The position numbers and the translations under genes were made by a program. 64,000 bases of DNA from Branchiostoma floridae (Eukaryota > Chordata > Leptocardii > Amphioxiformes > Branchiostomatidae), in the NCBI RefSeq assembly GCF_000003815.2, contig NC_049984.1, forward strand, positions 2,931,897-2,995,896. Reading direction: 5' to 3'. A model generated the notes under the pieces. That model ran no database searches. It saw only the letters and a list, made by a program, of their open reading frames with translations, and was not told the DNA's origin. The number at the start of each line of letters is the position of its first letter. Position 1 is the first letter of the stretch. This document shows positions 11,764 to 64,000 of the stretch, piece by piece.

Positions 11764-12990
11764 TAAGCAATATTATTACTAACGTTAGTATTTACACTGA
11801 ACTGTTATTTCTTTACAGTTGTATGGCTAAAAGTAATCGGGCATATGATGCAAACTAACGATTATTTTATTTAAATGCTGTAAGTATGGTAAATAATTTT
11901 CTGTTTTGAAATGATGTTATATATACTCCGGGAGATGTAACGGATATTACGGACTGTTCATGAACATGTAATGTTGATCTAATTTTCCATTAAATTATTT
12001 GAAGACATATGAATTGGTGGACTCCTATTTCATAAGACTAAATGGACGTGATCGTATGCAAAGAAAATCTGAGTTAAGTGACGACGAAGGTTTTAAGAAT
12101 AGTTAAACTCCTACCGACCTATTCCCTTTTAAAAATTGTCATTCTAAATTTCACATGTATTGCATTTAAACAAGTCGAAGCCGCCTCAAAATTCAAACCC
12201 TTTTATCAATAGCGTGCATTTCGTGAGTTCGGCATTCCCAAAATTCGACAACTTGACGGGCCGTTTTTTGGTGCCCTTTTTTAGAAGCGGTTGGGAGCGG
12301 TACTGCATGGTAGGCTGTGATAGGGTACGTATGTCCTGCTTTATGATAAAATTTGAAAACGCAAAAACCGAACTAAAATTGTCAGAATCCATCTTGTTGA
12401 AATATAATGATGTTCATAAACAAACAAACAAACACACACCTGCAGTGTTGTAATATTATAAGTTACACATGGGGTGCAGTCTTCACTACAAACATAAGGT
12501 GTTAGAAGTAGCCTTAGATGCCAGCCTTTTTGCTTCTTAGTTTTTGGCAATGCGCTCTTACTCTCACATCATAAGTGGCATCGTTACCGATCCCCTTTAC
12601 TTTCCTTCTCCTTTTGTATGTTCTTCGAAATGTTAAAAAAAAAGGAAAATGGTGAAAAACCTTCTTGTCCCTCCTGTCTACTTTTCTTTTTTTTTTTTGG
12701 ACTTAGTTAAACCCCAATTAAAAACGGGCCATAAACTAACAAGTAAGAAGCCCCATAAACTAACAAGTAAGGATGACATCCAGACTCATGTTTGAAGTCC
12801 CGCCAGTTAATGTTTAACATCAAAGGTCACCGAAAGTTCAAATCACGATCGGGGGTTGCCCGGAAGTTGACCGGCACTCAAGACACACAAGACCTCAGGT
12901 GTCAGTGCCGTATTTTACTTCACTTCTGTCCTTGTTCCTGACCTGTTTGACCAAGAAGGTCTAAAGAATTTGGTTTGACAACATCTTAGA

Positions 12991-17968
<4,978 letters not shown>

Positions 17969-23000: not shown

Positions 23001-26000
23001 AGAGCAACAAGTTCAGCAGTATGCTCTTTAAGTTAGTCTTACCAAGTCATCAAATACTCAACTCACTCAAGAGACAAGTCATTCTTTAAGGGCACTTTCT
23101 TATTTTACACAAATCTTTATCCATTTCATGTTATATCAAAATCAAACGAAATGTCCTTCCCAGAAACAACAAACAAAACCAAAAACAGACCACTGAGCTG
23201 CTGGGGTCCATCTACAGCAAAGTTATCCCAGGTTTTCTGACCTGAAATACTTTAAGCAGCCAATTACAATTACCTCCATACTACAACAAAATAATAACTA
23301 TAACACAAGTCACTGAACTATTTACTACACAAGTCAAGCCCTGAAAACCCTTGCCACCATTTTCATGACACTTTCCACAGAACTATGAACAAGCTGTACC
23401 AGCCAGACTGCCTGAACCTTTGCCAGAACCCAAACCCTGACCTTTAAGTTTTTACCAACATACTGACATTATACATTAGTGCAGAATCTGATGACGCATG
23501 CAATTATTATTTGTAATATTCAAAGATGGCTCAGTTACTGCAAATGACACTATTAAGCAGAAGAAATGGTAAAAATAAAAATGTACATAATCATTTATGC
23601 CTACATCTTAACTTGGCTTTCTTTTTAAAAGTGATTATAAAAACAAACAAACAAAAAAACAATAAAAAAACTCTGTACCCTCTTATGAGTCAAAATCAAA
23701 ACATAAAAAAATCCCTAACTCTAAATTATTGCATCCACCAACATTCTACTGTGGCCAAAAAGAGTGAAACTGACTACTAAATCCTGATACTCAGTACGTA
23801 CATTTTGTACGTTCTTGTGTCAACTGCCATCTTCACTATTACAATTTCTAACACTTTAGACAATACCTACACCATCGTTACCATATATTTGCTCCCATAA
23901 CACATATAGTAGCAAAAAGCACATAGCAAAACATACTTCACGTGTTAGACTGTTAAATGAGATCACATTTATCATTTTGAAATGTTGGATGACAGCCTTT
24001 CCGGAGGGCACAAGATCGGCAGCATGACAGGATTTGAACCCAGGACCTCTGGGTACTGAGCCAAACACCCTGCAGTTAAGCCACATGACCCCACACAGAT
24101 GTATATACTCCTTGATTGTGAACGGAGAACCTTGGTATCCAATGTAATTATTCATGGACGCAGATGAGATTTTGCCTGGGTACCATCCAGGTAGTAGTTC
24201 GCTCCTATGTTTGCTTCTGCTATCCATCTGGGGAACTGTATATTCAAACTGTTTGGTGATGACATCAGTTAATGAGTGAGTTCAGGAATGGCTTCTAGGG
24301 CACTCATTCCATGACAACAGGCCCTCCAGCAAACGGACAAAGGGAATTTTGGGTGTTGGAACACCTGTTCGAACGAGCGCTTGAACCCATTCCTTAATTC
24401 TCTCATGTGTGGAGACCAATCAGTGCTCTCGTCCAAAATTTGGACGATTCCACACCTTAGAGATGTCCAGGTTCACAGACAGTATAGCAGATATAAGCAA
24501 CTGTATACAGAGTATAATAAACGTCAGAGCGAACTACTATCCGGATGGTACCCAGGCTAGATGAGCTTTCCTTCCATGATTCTAACCCCATCCTTACATG
24601 TGGTACTGGCTGCTTGGGCTTTACTCCAATTAAGTGATTTGTCTGAGTTGAAGCAAATGTTCAAGAACTCTAGGGCTATGCTGTGATTTGGATCCCCAAT
24701 GCTGTGATTTGGGCCCCTACACTGTGTTCCAAACAGCTGCGTTTTGTGCAAATATTTAAAAAAAAATGTTCTCTTTATTTTACTAAATTTGGCCCTCAAA
24801 ATGTGGAAAGTAGTGTTTCTGAGGGTTATCACTTTAAAAATTTTCAGGGGGAGGATTTCCCCCAGACCCCATCAAAGCTTTTCTGCACTAAGATGCTGTA
24901 AAAAAATCCAGGTAAGAGCACTGCTATTTTTCTTCTAACAATGCCTGTAACCACGTCCTCACCTGTGGTACTGGCCTCTTGGCCTCTGGGGAAGGCTTGG
25001 GGATGTTGGGCTTGACGGGTGGTACTGCCGCCACCTCTTTTGCTTCCTTAGCAGCGTCCAAGTCATTCTGAAACAACACAGACTACTCCACTTAGAGACC
25101 ATTAACATCTACGAGCCCCTAGAAAATAATTTCATCAGGTTGCTAGAAGATAGGATTTGGAGATTTCTTTTGCAAAACCAGAATGCTTCTTACCTGCTGA
25201 CGTTTCAATGTCTGTCAGACATCTTCTACTTACATCGGCTACATATAGCGGCGAGAAGAAAAAATCCAGATAGAAGCTCCGAGGAAGATGTCTGACAGAC
25301 ATCCAGACGTCAGCAGGTAAGAGACATTCTAGTTGTGCAAAAGAAAAAACTACCCAAAATACTTAATGAACAGTGTCAACGCTTCCAAAATCTGTCCAGT
25401 TGCTAGAATAACTGTTAGCTTGAACATGTACAACACAGTTCAGTGTCAATCAGACTTTCAATGCTCTGGACTACATACAAACATTACCATGAATAACTTC
25501 ACAACAGAACAATACTTAAAATAAAGATTGTCTCGGGGGTTAGTTCTGGTTCTAGTTACTAGTAGTAAAATCTCTTGACAACACTTCCTGTAGAACACAA
25601 CTGTTACAGGGTAACAAACGTTGTTTAAGATCAGTCAATAATTCCATCACGTTGGTAAATGGCTGAATAACAACATTTTTCTTTCACAACCAGGGAGTGG
25701 CATTTAACAGCTGACATATTGATGACCTTGTCACTTTATGTTTGGGACTTCATCTGTAAGCAGCGCCACCTATAGCTGCAGTGCAATGTGAACCAGTCAG
25801 AATTGTCCTGAGAAAGGTAACAGTTGGTCACCAAAATACCAGCTATCATCTTACCGCCTGGTTGTGAAGAAAGAATGTTGCTATTCAACATTGGTTAATA
25901 CTTGTGTGTTTTTGTACTTCCAAGCATGTTTAACAGGGTGAAGAAATAAGACAAAGATGACCATGTCATGATTCACAAGGTGTGAACAATTCTGCATGCT

Positions 26001-49873: not shown

Positions 49874-52348
49874 ATGGAAGAAAGCCCAGCACCAGGATTT
49901 ACCAGTGACCTGAGGATGGATCCAGCGGAAGGTGAGAGCCTTGTGTGGAGATGCAAATTTTATTCATATAACGTTATTTATTTTGTAACAGTGGGCTTCA
50001 AGCACCACCAAACTGACCATACCAACCGTCTGACGCTTTGGCGTAGTGGCATTGGGTTTGTGAGCTGGCAGACCAGGTTCTCCACAGGTTTGAATACTGG
50101 GAGATAGGAGGCTGTTTCTATTTGCCTCTTGTGTTTGTGGTTTCCATGCCGACCCTGTGAGTAACAGGCTAAAGATTATGCCACACAGGGATATCACGTT
50201 CCGAGATTCGAGGACGGATCTTTAAAAGAAAGGGGGGATAGTGTAACAGTGGGGTTCAAGCGCTGCCAAACTGACCCATCATTTCTGTGACCTCTAGTAG
50301 GGATGATATAAAGTGCTACATGATTTGTTTGTCAGGTACACATTGTTAGCTAAACCCGCTTTTTACCAGACTGGCCAGTTTGTATGCTTACTTAATTCAA
50401 CCAAACAACATGTACATGTACATTTGTAGTAAATTTCCTTGCTTACAAAAGTTGCCAAAGTAAAACATCAAAATTTCCCCCATTTAAAGTCTGTATCAGC
50501 ATTGATTGATTTTATTGTTCTCTTGCAGATCTGAGTAAAAGTGGAGCAGCAGCCCCTACAGTTATTCACTACCACAACTATTACATTAACCAGGCAAAAA
50601 ATGTACAGATTGGTCATGACAATATCATCAACACAACTGGGTTTGAGGATGGGGATTTTGTGGATGGTGAGACTTTACTTTAGTATACACCTTTTAACAT
50701 GTAATTTGAAAATCTGTTTCCTTTGAAAGTTTCTATTTGTCTATCTTCTCTGTTGCGTATTTGATTCAGGTTTTAAGCAAGTAGTAGGTTACTAGTATTT
50801 TCCTTGGTTTTAAAGTAAAGTATCAGATTGTTTTGAAGATCACAAATTGACTTTTTCATTATTTAAGACAGATTGATACATATTATCCTTCACAGAGAGC
50901 TATAGCAGCATAGCTAATCATAAATGTATAGGCGGTTGTTAAAATTAAGAATGCATAGCACAGTGTATGAGCATCAATTTCAGTAGTGAAAATATTGAAT
51001 AAAACATGTACAGTTGTTTACTTCTTCTTGTCTCTTCTTCAGCACCACAACCTTTGGAAGCATCAAGGCTTGGCTCAAATGTTCAGCCTGGCTTTTCTCC
51101 TGAAATACAGCCGCAACTGCAGGTAGCAGACAGTACCTGTACTGTAACAGCGGCAGTCACAGACACCAACCCACCCCCAATTGCACAGAACATTACACCC
51201 AGTAACCCCCCATACAGCCCTCCCAACGGTGTTACACCAGCCACTACAGACAATGGGAGCTCTGGTAAACCCCAAGCCAGCCCTCCTAAGCTGGACCCCA
51301 GCCTTCATATAGGAAAAATGCCGTTCAGGGTTCGCCACCGGTTAACCAGCATGCTGAGTGTGAAAAAAACAGATGGTAAGTTCTGCTTGTAAATAATGTA
51401 CTTGTATCCTGTACTGTTGTAGGAACTGTCAAGGAACTATTAGATGAAGTGAAGTTAAGCCACACAAACTCCTTTCATCATTGGGTGTATTTTGCTCACA
51501 AATTGTCTCTGTCATAGCGTAAATGACCTGTAAATGATATATGAACTTCACCCGATAAGCACAATACATTTGTACTTGCAGTTTGTGTGGATCAAATCAT
51601 CCATTGTATTGTCAGGGTTAGAATTTTTATTACTCATTATGGATGACTGTTTTTTTTTAAATTGTACCTACGATGTATCACCACCCAAAATGACCATTCA
51701 GTACTGATATACGAGCGATCACAATTATGTCACGGTGACGCAGTGGTAGGCAAAAAGCAGGTGTTTGGCAAAAGATTGATTTACATATTAACCAGTAATT
51801 TTAGCCGCTAATTTGAATATCAATATTTGATCCAATCTACTGATGTCCTGGTAGGCAACAACCGTCGAATACCCCGGATAGAAACAACAACAGCGATCGC
51901 TCGTATACAGGTGGATGTGGAAATTTCTTGTGACCAGCCTCTCATTACTGCATCCTAGCAGCAATAGGAGGTACTGCAGAACCTTGCTGTGGGAAGTCTC
52001 CCATTACTGTAATATTTTGACTAGTAACAGTAGGTTTGTATCTTTCAACCTCAACAAAATTACTATTAATAGCAAATACATTTGGTACAAGAATCAGTTG
52101 TGTAATGAAGTTTTCCTATGCTCTGAGATAAAGCTCAGTCTGACTCTTTTCAAACAGGGAAGGACTGGAGGTTCCTTGTAGAGAAGTTGGGATTCGAGCC
52201 ACACTACGTTGCCTTGTGGGACCAGCGTCATGACAACCCGGCCGAGACACTGTTACAGTCCTGGGCAGTACAGCTGGAGGCAACAGTGGGCAGACTGCAT
52301 GCACTGCTACTAGAGTGTGACATGGGAGATATCGCAGAAATACTTTGA
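49874..52348 (+). CDS. RHIM plus death-domain adaptor, IMD-like, complete, 4 exons, 239 aa
   Basis: Exons 49874-49931, 50529-50666, 51043-51375, 52158-52348; all GT-AG, all introns in phase 1, stop TGA. Residues 20-65 carry a RHIM: HYHNYYINQAKNVQIGHDN with the VQIG core at 45-48, matching the [I/V]-Q-[I/V]-G signature of RIPK1, RIPK3, ZBP1 and TRIF. Residues about 66-150 are a Pro/Ser/Thr-rich, low-complexity linker. Residues about 151-239 form a death domain: FRVRHRLTSML (helix 1), GKDWRFLVEKLGF, DNPAETLLQSWAVQ and TVGRLHALLLECDM. No kinase, TIR or membrane segment is seen. RHIM followed by a C-terminal death domain is the order in insect IMD; a role as amyloid-forming adaptor in NF-kB or death signalling is inferred. 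A 5' non-coding exon is possible. A paralog lies 11 kb downstream. Confidence 0.87.
49985..50283 (+). mobile_element. tRNA-derived SINE-like insertion with flanking direct repeats
   Basis: An A-box-like TGGCGTAGTGGCATTGGG (50039-50056) and B-box-like GGTTTGAATACTGG (50087-50100) lie between two copies of GTAACAGTGGGCTTCAAGC (about 49985 and 50241, the second with G for C) in intron 1 of the RHIM gene. Confidence 0.5.
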
Positions 52349-60744: not shown

Positions 60745-63217
60745 ATGGAGGAAGACAGACGTGTTGAAGATTTCTCAGCCGGAGCTGTTATTCTTGGACG
60801 GATCGACGGAATCCCAGCACTAGAATTTGACAAGATGGATACAACAGTTGATGGAGGTGTGTTGAGATGCATTTTATTTGCCATATTACTTTATTTGTGA
60901 TAACGATAATATTTCTGTTGCCCCCCACCCCCCGCAATAGCCAACCTATATTTGGTAGTAGCCATCAAGACGTAACGTTAAACCGATGAAATGCACAATT
61001 TACTTTCACGTAGGTAAAACCTGTAACGTTCTGCGTGCCGTCGAAATAGTTAGCTGGCACGGAAAAAATATCGGCAAGGGGGAGGGGGGCGGTATACCGC
61101 TCAAAAGGAAAGGCGGTCTGGTGGCCGATTTGAGGTTCTCATGAATTAAAGCTTTAACAAATTGAACATAGGTTCAAACAGATAGCGACGGTGGGGGGTG
61201 ATACTGCCAAAATCACGGCAGAGGGGGGACTGCGGCAAAAATAACGGCAGAGCGTATTGGAGAGGGAATGGCGCCAAAAATAATGGCGCCAAAAATAATG
61301 GCGCCAAAAATAATGGCGCCAAAAATAATGGCGCCAAAAATAATGGCGCCAAAAATAATGGCGCCAAAAATAATGGCGCCAAAAATTGAATCACCAAATC
61401 TCACTTTTTCTCGCGTGGATTGCACTAACGCCCTCCTGTAATGCTAGGTGAAACTGCAGTTTCCTTTTCTCGCGTGGATTGCACTAACGCCCTCTAGTCA
61501 TGCTAGCTGAAACTGCAGTTTTCTTTTCTCGCGTGGATTGCACTAACGCCCTCTAGTCATGCTAGCTGAAACTGCAGTTTCACCAATGTGAAGTCAATAA
61601 TGATAGGCATCTAGCATCATGTTGCAGCCTTTATTTCATTTTTAGATGAAATTAAGTCATTTTGTTGATGTTGCTACATCAGGCATCCTTCTTATTTGTA
61701 ATATGCTGGAAAAATTTTCAACTTTTTTTTCAAAGTTGTGTTTTTCTCTGTTTTTCCTATTTCTCCAGTTTTTCTCTATAACTGAGCATTTGTGTTTACT
61801 CTACAGTCTGTGGCACTGACCACTTTTCCATGTGTATTTTTCAAATCGCATGTTAAGTCTATGCCAACATGCAATTTTGCACGCACTGTTGCAGTCATTG
61901 CCTTATATTTTCGGTAGCGTCTGTGTGTGTGTCAGGGGGGAGTTGGGGTGTGGGTCAGGATTTGGAAAGGAATAACTGAAGAAGGACTGGAGTTGACGGA
62001 TCGTCATGGTTTTTGGTATGCAGCTAGCTTCCGTGATGCTTCATATAGTTGAATATTGAATTTGCGAATCGGAATCTAATTTGCATTATCAATGAAGAAA
62101 TTGTCTAAACCTGCCCTGTTCCATTATAGGACTATTGCAACATGTGATATTTGTAATGGAGACAGAGAAGTATGTTTATAGATGAATATTATGCTAATAC
62201 AGATCTAATTTGCATAATTGATGAGAAAATTTTATAGTCCCACTGCGGTGAATGACCGGAATTTCTTGTGGCACTTGAAAGTTATGTGCAGGTAAACATT
62301 GAACATTGATTATGCAACTGAGGATTTCATTTGCATAACTTATCATAAACTGTGATTGAAGCCTTTCTGAGCATAGATTGTGTACGTCAGTTACATGGGG
62401 GGGGGTGATGATCAATAAATGTAATTTATGCAAACGAGGAACTTTTTTGCACAATTTGTAATGACAAACATAATCCCCCAGTTGTAAAGGTAAAATCCCT
62501 TAGCAAAGGCGTGGGACGTGTAACTGATGAAGTTTTTTTAGCACATCCACTGGGTTTTGGTCAGGACTTACTAAGCTGAACCTTTGGACCTGAATCCAGA
62601 CTTCTTGCAATTTTTCCCATTCGCCCTGTCAGTCCAATTTTTTTTTTTTGGGGGGGGGGGGGGGGGGTATCGGAGAACCAACAAATGGAATTGTTATGCC
62701 CTCTTGTCCTTAGCAACATTGATGATTTATTTCCTCTTGCAGATCTGAGTGAGAGTGGGGGAGCAGCACTTCCAGTTATTCACTACCATGTTTACAACAT
62801 CAGCCAGGTGGAAAATGTACAGATTGGTACAAATAATGTTATTGACAAAACTGGATATGACGACAGGGATTTTGTGGATGGTGAGACGGTACTTTTGCAC
62901 AAACCTTTGTACGTTTAATTACAAATTAAAATACAATCTAATAACTCTATTTTTACCTATTTGTTTCAAGTTTTAGTTAAGCACTTGTATTGATTAGGTG
63001 AACTAAACAATAAAACATATTTGTATAATCTTTCGACCTCAATAAAATAGCTACAGAAAATAAATTTGGTAAGAAAAATCAGTTCCACGTGAAGATTTAT
63101 TTATGCATCAACATAACCATCTGATTGCAGGAAAGGAATCAAGGCTACTTGTGGAGAAGTTGGAATACGAGCCACACCATGTTGACCCGTGGGACAATCG
63201 TAAAGACAATCCAGGAG
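60745..63217 (+). CDS. Second RHIM gene with partial death domain (paralog, 3' end not resolved)
   Basis: Exons 60745-60856, 62743-62880 and 63131-63217, GT-AG, all phase 1, as in the first RHIM gene. Start ATG at 60745 gives a new N terminus (MEEDRRVEDFSAGAV). Exon 2 is exactly as long as its counterpart (138 bp) and encodes IHYHVYNISQVENVQIGTNN, with VQIG at residues 63-66. Exon 3 encodes GKESRLLVEKLEYEPH and DPWDNRKDNPGG, similar to the start of the death-domain exon of gene 1, then a GTATAT donor. The Pro-rich linker and helix 1 exon is absent, and the second half of the death domain is not found before 64000. Inferred: a RHIM protein with altered or no death-domain function, or a decaying duplicate. 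The W of KDW is lost. Confidence 0.7.
61271..61385. repeat. 15-bp minisatellite GCGCCAAAAATAATG, 7.7 copies
   Basis: Perfect head-to-tail copies in intron 1 of the second RHIM gene. Each unit holds the palindrome GGCGCC and, on the minus strand, TTTGGCGC, which fits the E2F consensus TTTSSCGC. Confidence 0.95.
61404..61580. repeat. 59-bp tandem repeat, three units
   Basis: TCTCGCGTGGATTGCACTAA to GAAACTGCAGTTT recurs with starts at about 61411, 61470 and 61529, directly after the 15-bp array. Confidence 0.92.
62648..62667. repeat. Poly-G tract after poly-T
   Basis: About 19 consecutive G follow a T run, 75 bases before RHIM exon 2 of the second gene. A second G run of about 17 lies at 63481-63497. 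Either could form a G-quadruplex or reflect assembly slippage. Confidence 0.85.
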
Positions 63218-63545
63218 GTATATTTACATTCCACTCCACATATTGTAGGTATGAGAGTGAAAGATTGTTAACACATCATTAATTACCTTTTAATGTACCA
63301 TACTTGTAAATGTAAATTCATTTCGTTAATCCATTTTAAAATGATTAAGTTTTGTCCGGAATTAATCTGGAAGTCCCTGATTAACCTGGAGGGCGTTTGC
63401 CATATTTCACTCCACCATACCGTGGGTCTGGGAGTAAATATGTTGTTACAACTTATATTTCCTTCCCTATACCCTGTATTGGGGGGGGGGGGGGGGGTGT
63501 TTTTGCCGGTGTCTCCCCTTGGTCTACTTAAACAGGAGGTGCCCA

Positions 63546-63986
63546 CTACTCTTCCGGACTGAGGACCTTACTCTTTGATGGATGGAAGTATATCCCCCAA
63601 TGAAGCCTCAACTGATACACAGAGGAAATATCAAGCTCTAGTTGATCGCAATCATCGGAGTTGTGCATCTCTCTATACGAATTGTCTGCAAACAACGCTA
63701 CAGTGGAGTTCTTGGCAGTGTCAGGTAAATCATCGATATATCCTACGAATAACATTGGACCTAGAACGGAACCCTGCGGAACACCAGAGGCAACAGGGAG
63801 CCACTCTGAGCGACTGCCTTCAAATACCGCTCGCAGCTTTCGGTTAGTATGGGACGAGATTTGACAGTCCCTAGTAATGCTGTTGAGACTTTTGTATACA
63901 TGGAAGGGATTTTTATTCTTGCAATAAGAAATGATTGAATCTTTGTCAATGATTCTATTAAGTTGATCTTCTCCAGAAGCCAGCAT
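63546..63986 (-). pseudogene. Decayed non-LTR retrotransposon reverse transcriptase
   Basis: The minus frame contains SEWLPVASGVPQGSVLGPML then FVGYIDDLP and VALFADN, then HPSKSKVL: the RT motifs around the catalytic site of CR1/jockey-type LINEs. The usual F-A-D-D is F-A-D-N here, so the polymerase is inactive, and the part upstream of SGVPQGS seems frame-shifted. It lies in antisense within or just after the second RHIM gene. Confidence 0.85.
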
Positions 63987-64000
63987 GGAGAATAATGTCG

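Follow-up and report, generated by a model that had tools for sequence, protein, structure and literature searches.

RHIMs and death domains (DDs) are two routes to immune signalling assemblies, RHIMs forming amyloid and DDs building helical platforms, and the two meet in RIPK1 in vertebrates and in IMD in flies. The action of amphioxus RIP1 on NF-kB reportedly depends on the RHIM. Amphioxus RIP1 proteins (RIP1a and RIP1b; Li et al. 2011) act on NF-kB (cited in PMC7179693), and the RHIM of lancelet RIPK1 was described as conserved in a study in which RIPK1-CT constructs from diverse species were assayed for NF-kB activation (PMC12119088). Both Drosophila and Branchiostoma are said to have RHIM orthologues (PMC9444067). 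An excerpt of PMC9573974 states that, according to SMART, the RHIM occurs only in vertebrate RIPKs; this is hard to reconcile with PMC12119088 and with the lancelet genome, where a RHIM pattern lies next to a RIPK1-like DD. The amphioxus adaptor bbtTICAM was reported to act through RIP via the RHIM (PMC6043800); at odds with this, the available portion of PMC9440496 states that the RHIM was not found conserved in Leptocardii TICAM. A cryptic RHIM is defined by a missing conserved Gln for PGRP-LC and PGRP-LE, and the motif of IMD is called cryptic as well (excerpt of PMC9496462). As far as the retrieved text of the open-licence PubMed Central literature searched goes, a kinase-less RHIM-DD protein has not been described in amphioxus. 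The lancelet gene analyzed here, termed copy A, is IMD-like in its layout and probably distinct from RIPK1.

Copy A is located at 49874-52348 of the window, i.e., the whole stretch of 64,000 nucleotides under analysis (C6:2931897-2995896), and genome searches covered 513 Mb in 431 contigs. The gene model comprises the following features:

49874..49931, forward strand: exon 1, with start ATG, GT donor, and an open frame ending in phase 1
50529..50666, forward strand: exon 2, the RHIM exon, with AG/GT borders matching those of the homologous copies B and C
50603..50629, forward strand: RHIM core VQIGHDNII, found by pattern scans
51043..51375, forward strand: exon 3, with a Pro/Thr-rich linker and the start of the DD (MPFRVRHRLTSMLSVKKTDG), aligned with MyD88
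52158..52348, forward strand: exon 4, with the remaining DD and the stop codon; Pfam Death covers residues 176-239

All three introns are of the GT-AG type and in phase 1, and the frame is continuous over 239 aa, followed by TGA. An in-frame stop lies 5' of the start codon, with no further ATG in the interval, and a second in-frame ATG is found near the end of exon 1. Joining of exons 1-4 is supported at the sequence level by intron phase and by RHIM-exon borders common to all three copies. The rebuilt model reads through the same four exons as the first-pass annotation and confirms its length of 239 aa, its VQIG core near the N-terminus, its linker rich in Pro, and its C-terminal DD. A Pfam scan (24,736 models) revealed no kinase in the 239-aa model. 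Within the window, a tblastn query with a single kinase from this genome gave a best E-value of 0.27, far off at 24460-24642, and tblastn with the TIR of a MyD88-like gene gave a best E-value of 0.82. Among 85 TIR matches in the genome, the nearest on C6 was >1.3 Mb away from copy A, in a search that also overlooked the TIR of the MyD88-like gene, which is split. For the flanks of copy A, the Pfam scan took in ten ORFs of the window. The NCBIfam scan gave no match, nor did Rfam within the window; a protein search of plasmids, uninformative for copy A, also returned none. Elsewhere in the window, exons resembling ornithine decarboxylase were observed at 12979-17528 (Orn_Arg_deC_N and Orn_DAP_Arg_deC).

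The core VQIGHDNII conforms to the RHIM pattern [IV]Q[ILV]GxxNx[MLI] given in PMC9440496, as do VQIGTNNVI and VQIGHDNVM of two tandem paralogues, B and C, respectively (3/3 copies). Across six frames, the pattern occurs twice in the window (50603 and 62817), both times within homologous exons, and in none of 60 first-order Markov simulations. The Pfam RHIM model (PF12721) matched residues 38-51 of copy A with 8.5 bits, under the cut-off of 20 (E = 2.1 in the scan of 24,736 models), while paralogue C reached 13.9 bits, also under the cut-off, and B had no match. As a control, the RIPK1-like gene of the same genome likewise remained under the RHIM cut-off (12.8 vs. 20 bits). The profile check set by the first-pass annotation was thus borne out for Death, which scored above its Pfam cut-off, and not cleanly for RHIM. 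As the Pfam RHIM score was too weak alone, paralogues and profile comparison were brought in.

With the RHIM exon as a genome query, four matches were listed, i.e., copy A itself, paralogue B (E = 4.8e-12), paralogue C (E = 2.8e-12), and a fourth that contains a stop (E = 4.6). The exon borders are at identical positions in all three copies, and NVQIG, together with the Asn three positions further on, is among the parts that do not vary in their alignment. Across the RHIM exons, which are short sequences, dN/dS was 0.27 (A-B), 0.28 (A-C), and 0.33 (B-C) by NG86, 0.40, 0.39, and 0.31 for the same pairs by LWL85, and 0.42 for A-B by YN00; in a core of 24 codons picked by the analyst, NG86 gave 0.15-0.19 (B-C 0.19). 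Comparison by hhalign of the three-copy RHIM profile with six RHIMs of three other loci yielded a probability of 86% (E = 4.8e-6). A joint profile of these nine RHIMs retrieved from PDB only RIPK1 and RIPK3 chains at E-values up to 10 (best 0.0037), and the three-copy profile alone retrieved dynactin subunits and an adhesin (best E = 0.14) and no RHIM chain. Tandem paralogues and the profile match to three other loci support the assignment of a RHIM to copy A.

The three other loci (C135:205710, C148:162951, and C11:2599959; L030, L031, and L032, respectively) each carry two RHIM-like motifs in one exon. Single motifs scored 21.0 (C135), 20.2 (C148), and 18.7 bits (C11) against a Pfam RHIM cut-off of 20, and whole ORFs scored 25.4, 17.4, and 20.6 bits, respectively, so that we grade these predicted RHIMs as borderline to clear. 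Near the two-RHIM exons of L030, L031, and L032, we observed a weak TRADD-N exon (16.7, 12.2, and 21.3 bits; cut-off 23.7), and the loci possibly form a RHIM-RHIM-TRADD-N family; a TRADD-N survey (PMC8195603) makes no mention of RHIM in its main text. At the RIPK1-like locus, the RHIM core VQIGDKNVM (L060:833; C6:11044432) precedes the DD (L060:2553-2954; C6:11046296) by ~1.9 kb, and this DD is the best match to the human RIPK1 DD. Candidate RHIM partners of copy A, namely the RIPK1-like and two-RHIM loci, are probably present in the genome.

Paralogue B (C6:2994638) lies inside the window, from 62742, and comprises the following features, with a retroelement fragment beside it:

60745..60856, forward strand: probable exon 1 of paralogue B, read from the sequence; GT follows, phase 1 by count
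62743..62880, forward strand: RHIM exon of paralogue B (VQIGTNNVI), 63% identity to copy A, E = 4.8e-12, same borders
63131..63282, forward strand: truncated DD exon of paralogue B, the DD being cut short
63549..63998, reverse strand: reverse-transcriptase fragment just past the truncated DD of B (Pfam RVT_1, 34.8 bits)

Between the RHIM exon and the truncated DD exon of B, exon 3 was not found. A short tandem array with a unit of ~15 bases (ATAATGGCGCCAAAA) occupies, as read by eye, 61260-61390 of the window, downstream of exon 1 of B and upstream of its RHIM exon. Paralogue C (C6:3001129; L026:625-1590) lies beyond the window and consists of a RHIM exon with the core VQIGHDNVM and a linker that is shortened and runs into a stop; neither exon 1 nor a DD exon was found for it, and DNA resembling the 3' region of copy A occurs further along. 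With parts of the DD missing from B and C, the locus may be in decay, and both copies may be RHIM-only decoys or pseudogenes; if expressed, they could be inhibitors. An alternative reading of the whole locus is that it makes RHIM-capping inhibitors, with copy A as a modulator and B and C as RHIM-only decoys in a role analogous to that of Pirk. In its favour, B keeps its RHIM with a truncated DD, C keeps its RHIM and part of the linker before the stop, and the RHIM core remains under constraint when B is compared with C (NG86 0.19); in Drosophila, Pirk, itself with a cryptic RHIM, restrains IMD signalling (excerpt of PMC9496462). However, copy A has a full DD, and B and C may be pseudogenes (exon 1 of C was not found, and the retroelement fragment lies beside B), and we thus consider this alternative rather unlikely.

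The DD of copy A is secure by profile, with Pfam Death (PF00531) scoring 33.8 bits over residues 176-239 (cut-off 22.6; E = 3.7e-8). As a single sequence, it matched MyD88 (E = 2.1e-7), p75NTR (4.3e-5), UNC5B (0.002), and NRADD (1.4) in PDB, and neither RIPK1 nor FADD was found up to an E-value of 10. It belongs to a DD family of three loci, the others being C17:17558372 (59% identity in the exon) and C8:18352970 (39%), in which a phase-1 intron directly before the KDW/RDW motif is common to all three and the DD ends lie within a few residues of one another. The family profile retrieved MyD88 (E = 2.3e-9), UNC5B (1.5e-6), and p75NTR (5.1e-6) from PDB, with RIPK1 (2.1e-5), FADD (2.5e-5), and Pelle (4.7e-5) further down. 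Furthermore, we compared 22 DDs, a set without the DD of IMD, by BLASTP and in a tree. The best match outside the family was MyD88 for copy A (2.4e-6) and the C8 relative (1.2e-5), and UNC5B (1.4e-6), followed by the MyD88-like DD (2.0e-6), for the C17 relative. In the tree, the three family members group at 86/91, and an eight-member group with FADD and RIPK1 (97/98) excludes them. A MyD88-like gene on C16 has its DD in one unbroken exon (E = 8e-16) and two TIR exons (18.9 and 14.2-15 bits, both under their cut-offs); with this separate gene present, the candidate assignment of copy A as the MyD88 orthologue was dropped.

The first-pass annotation had named RIPK1 and FADD beforehand as groups against which the DD should be placed, and five AU tests were run after inspection of the tree. 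Holding the DD family with RIPK1 was disfavoured (p = 0.013, uncorrected, one of five tests), and holding it with FADD was not rejected (p = 0.079), nor was holding it with MyD88 (0.35), p75NTR (0.46), or UNC5B (0.46). On these sequence comparisons, the DD of copy A appears to lie outside the FADD/RIPK1 group. In genome queries with known DDs, the split of the copy A DD between exons lowers its chance of detection. The copy A locus was absent among the 150 matches listed for the human RIPK1 DD (216 candidates) and among the 150 listed for the human FADD DD (299 candidates), the latter including the C8 relative (E = 0.04). Likewise, the MyD88 DD gave 21 genome matches with the C17 (0.048) and C8 (0.28) relatives and without the copy A locus. 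These results bear on a second alternative, in which copy A is a RIPK1 paralogue that lost the kinase and kept RHIM and DD. The C-terminal half of RIPK1 is also ordered RHIM then DD, a RIPK1-like gene is found on the same contig as copy A, and an origin on the FADD/RIPK1 side as such is still allowed by the p-value for the FADD grouping. However, the AU result for the RIPK1 grouping and the absence of copy A among the RIPK1 DD matches listed speak against it, as does the fact that the RIPK1-like gene lies 8 Mb away with its own RHIM and DD, and we regard such descent as improbable.

A further alternative, that copy A is the lancelet orthologue of IMD, is suggested by an identical domain order without a kinase and by the report of a nemertean imd gene from its DD (excerpt of PMC9835746). 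Against this, the RHIM of IMD is called cryptic in PMC9496462, where this type is defined, for PGRP-LC and PGRP-LE, by a missing Gln, and the Gln is present in copy A. In addition, the strict RHIM pattern was not found in the flanks read of the two closest DD relatives (C17 and C8), the C17 flank being partly masked; a match to a loose pattern, LQVGITS, occurs within the DD intron of the C17 relative. Orthology to IMD is thus improbable. Next to the C8 relative, ~1.7 kb downstream on the same strand, we observed a protein kinase ORF (L028:2155-2766, minus strand; Pkinase 144 bits). The degenerate copies B and C might suggest that the copy A model represents a pseudogene or incorrectly joins exons that do not belong together, but this is very improbable in view of the continuous frame, the three canonical introns with matching phases, the RHIM-exon borders kept in all three copies, and the DD intron that copy A shares with the C17 and C8 loci.

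The exon structure, the RHIM pattern and DD, the tandem copies, and the DD family with its common intron are directly observed; the expression of copy A, its amyloid formation, partners, and pathway, and its lineage of origin are what we infer. On balance, we favour the explanation that copy A is a kinase-free RHIM-DD adaptor, its RHIM joining RHIM assemblies and its DD recruiting a partner, and that it was assembled independently. Its N-terminal RHIM would join or nucleate an amyloid-type assembly with other RHIM proteins, for which the RIPK1-like protein and the two-RHIM proteins are candidates, and its C-terminal DD would then recruit a DD partner, leading to NF-kB or cell-death signalling. 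The arrangement most likely originated in the lancelet lineage, where a RHIM exon would have been paired with a DD not belonging to the RIPK1/FADD group, possibly one on the side of MyD88, UNC5, or p75NTR. More speculatively, the lancelet may have evolved its own RHIM-DD bridge, with a canonical RHIM and a non-RIPK1 DD, and subsequently RHIM-only tandem inhibitors, giving a self-regulating locus convergent with IMD and Pirk; we put this forward only tentatively. A third, apparently independent meeting of RHIM and DD would suggest that this bridging was reached more than once. Copy A would also offer a compact protein for separating RHIM input from kinase activity, and with it one can test whether an IMD-like branch exists in amphioxus alongside the MyD88 and TICAM branches.

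Compared with known systems, copy A differs from TICAM/TRIF, which carries a TIR and no DD, in carrying a DD, and RHIM signalling was reported for bbtTICAM (excerpt of PMC6043800). MyD88 has the closest DD in PDB sequence searches; however, no TIR was found for copy A, and its DD is C-terminal and split by an intron, whereas that of the MyD88-like gene is in one exon. With the C-terminal half of RIPK1, copy A shares the order of RHIM then DD, but it lacks the kinase, and grouping of the DDs is disfavoured. Drosophila IMD likewise combines a RHIM-type motif with a C-terminal DD in the absence of a kinase, but in contrast to the cryptic RHIM reported for IMD (PMC9496462, partial text), copy A has a canonical VQIG, with the Gln present in all three copies. 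The earlier proposal of an IMD-like adaptor therefore holds for the kinase-less order of RHIM and DD, the motif itself differing from the cryptic type reported for IMD, and the other option raised then, an independent arrangement, fits better with the retained Gln and the disfavoured RIPK1 grouping.
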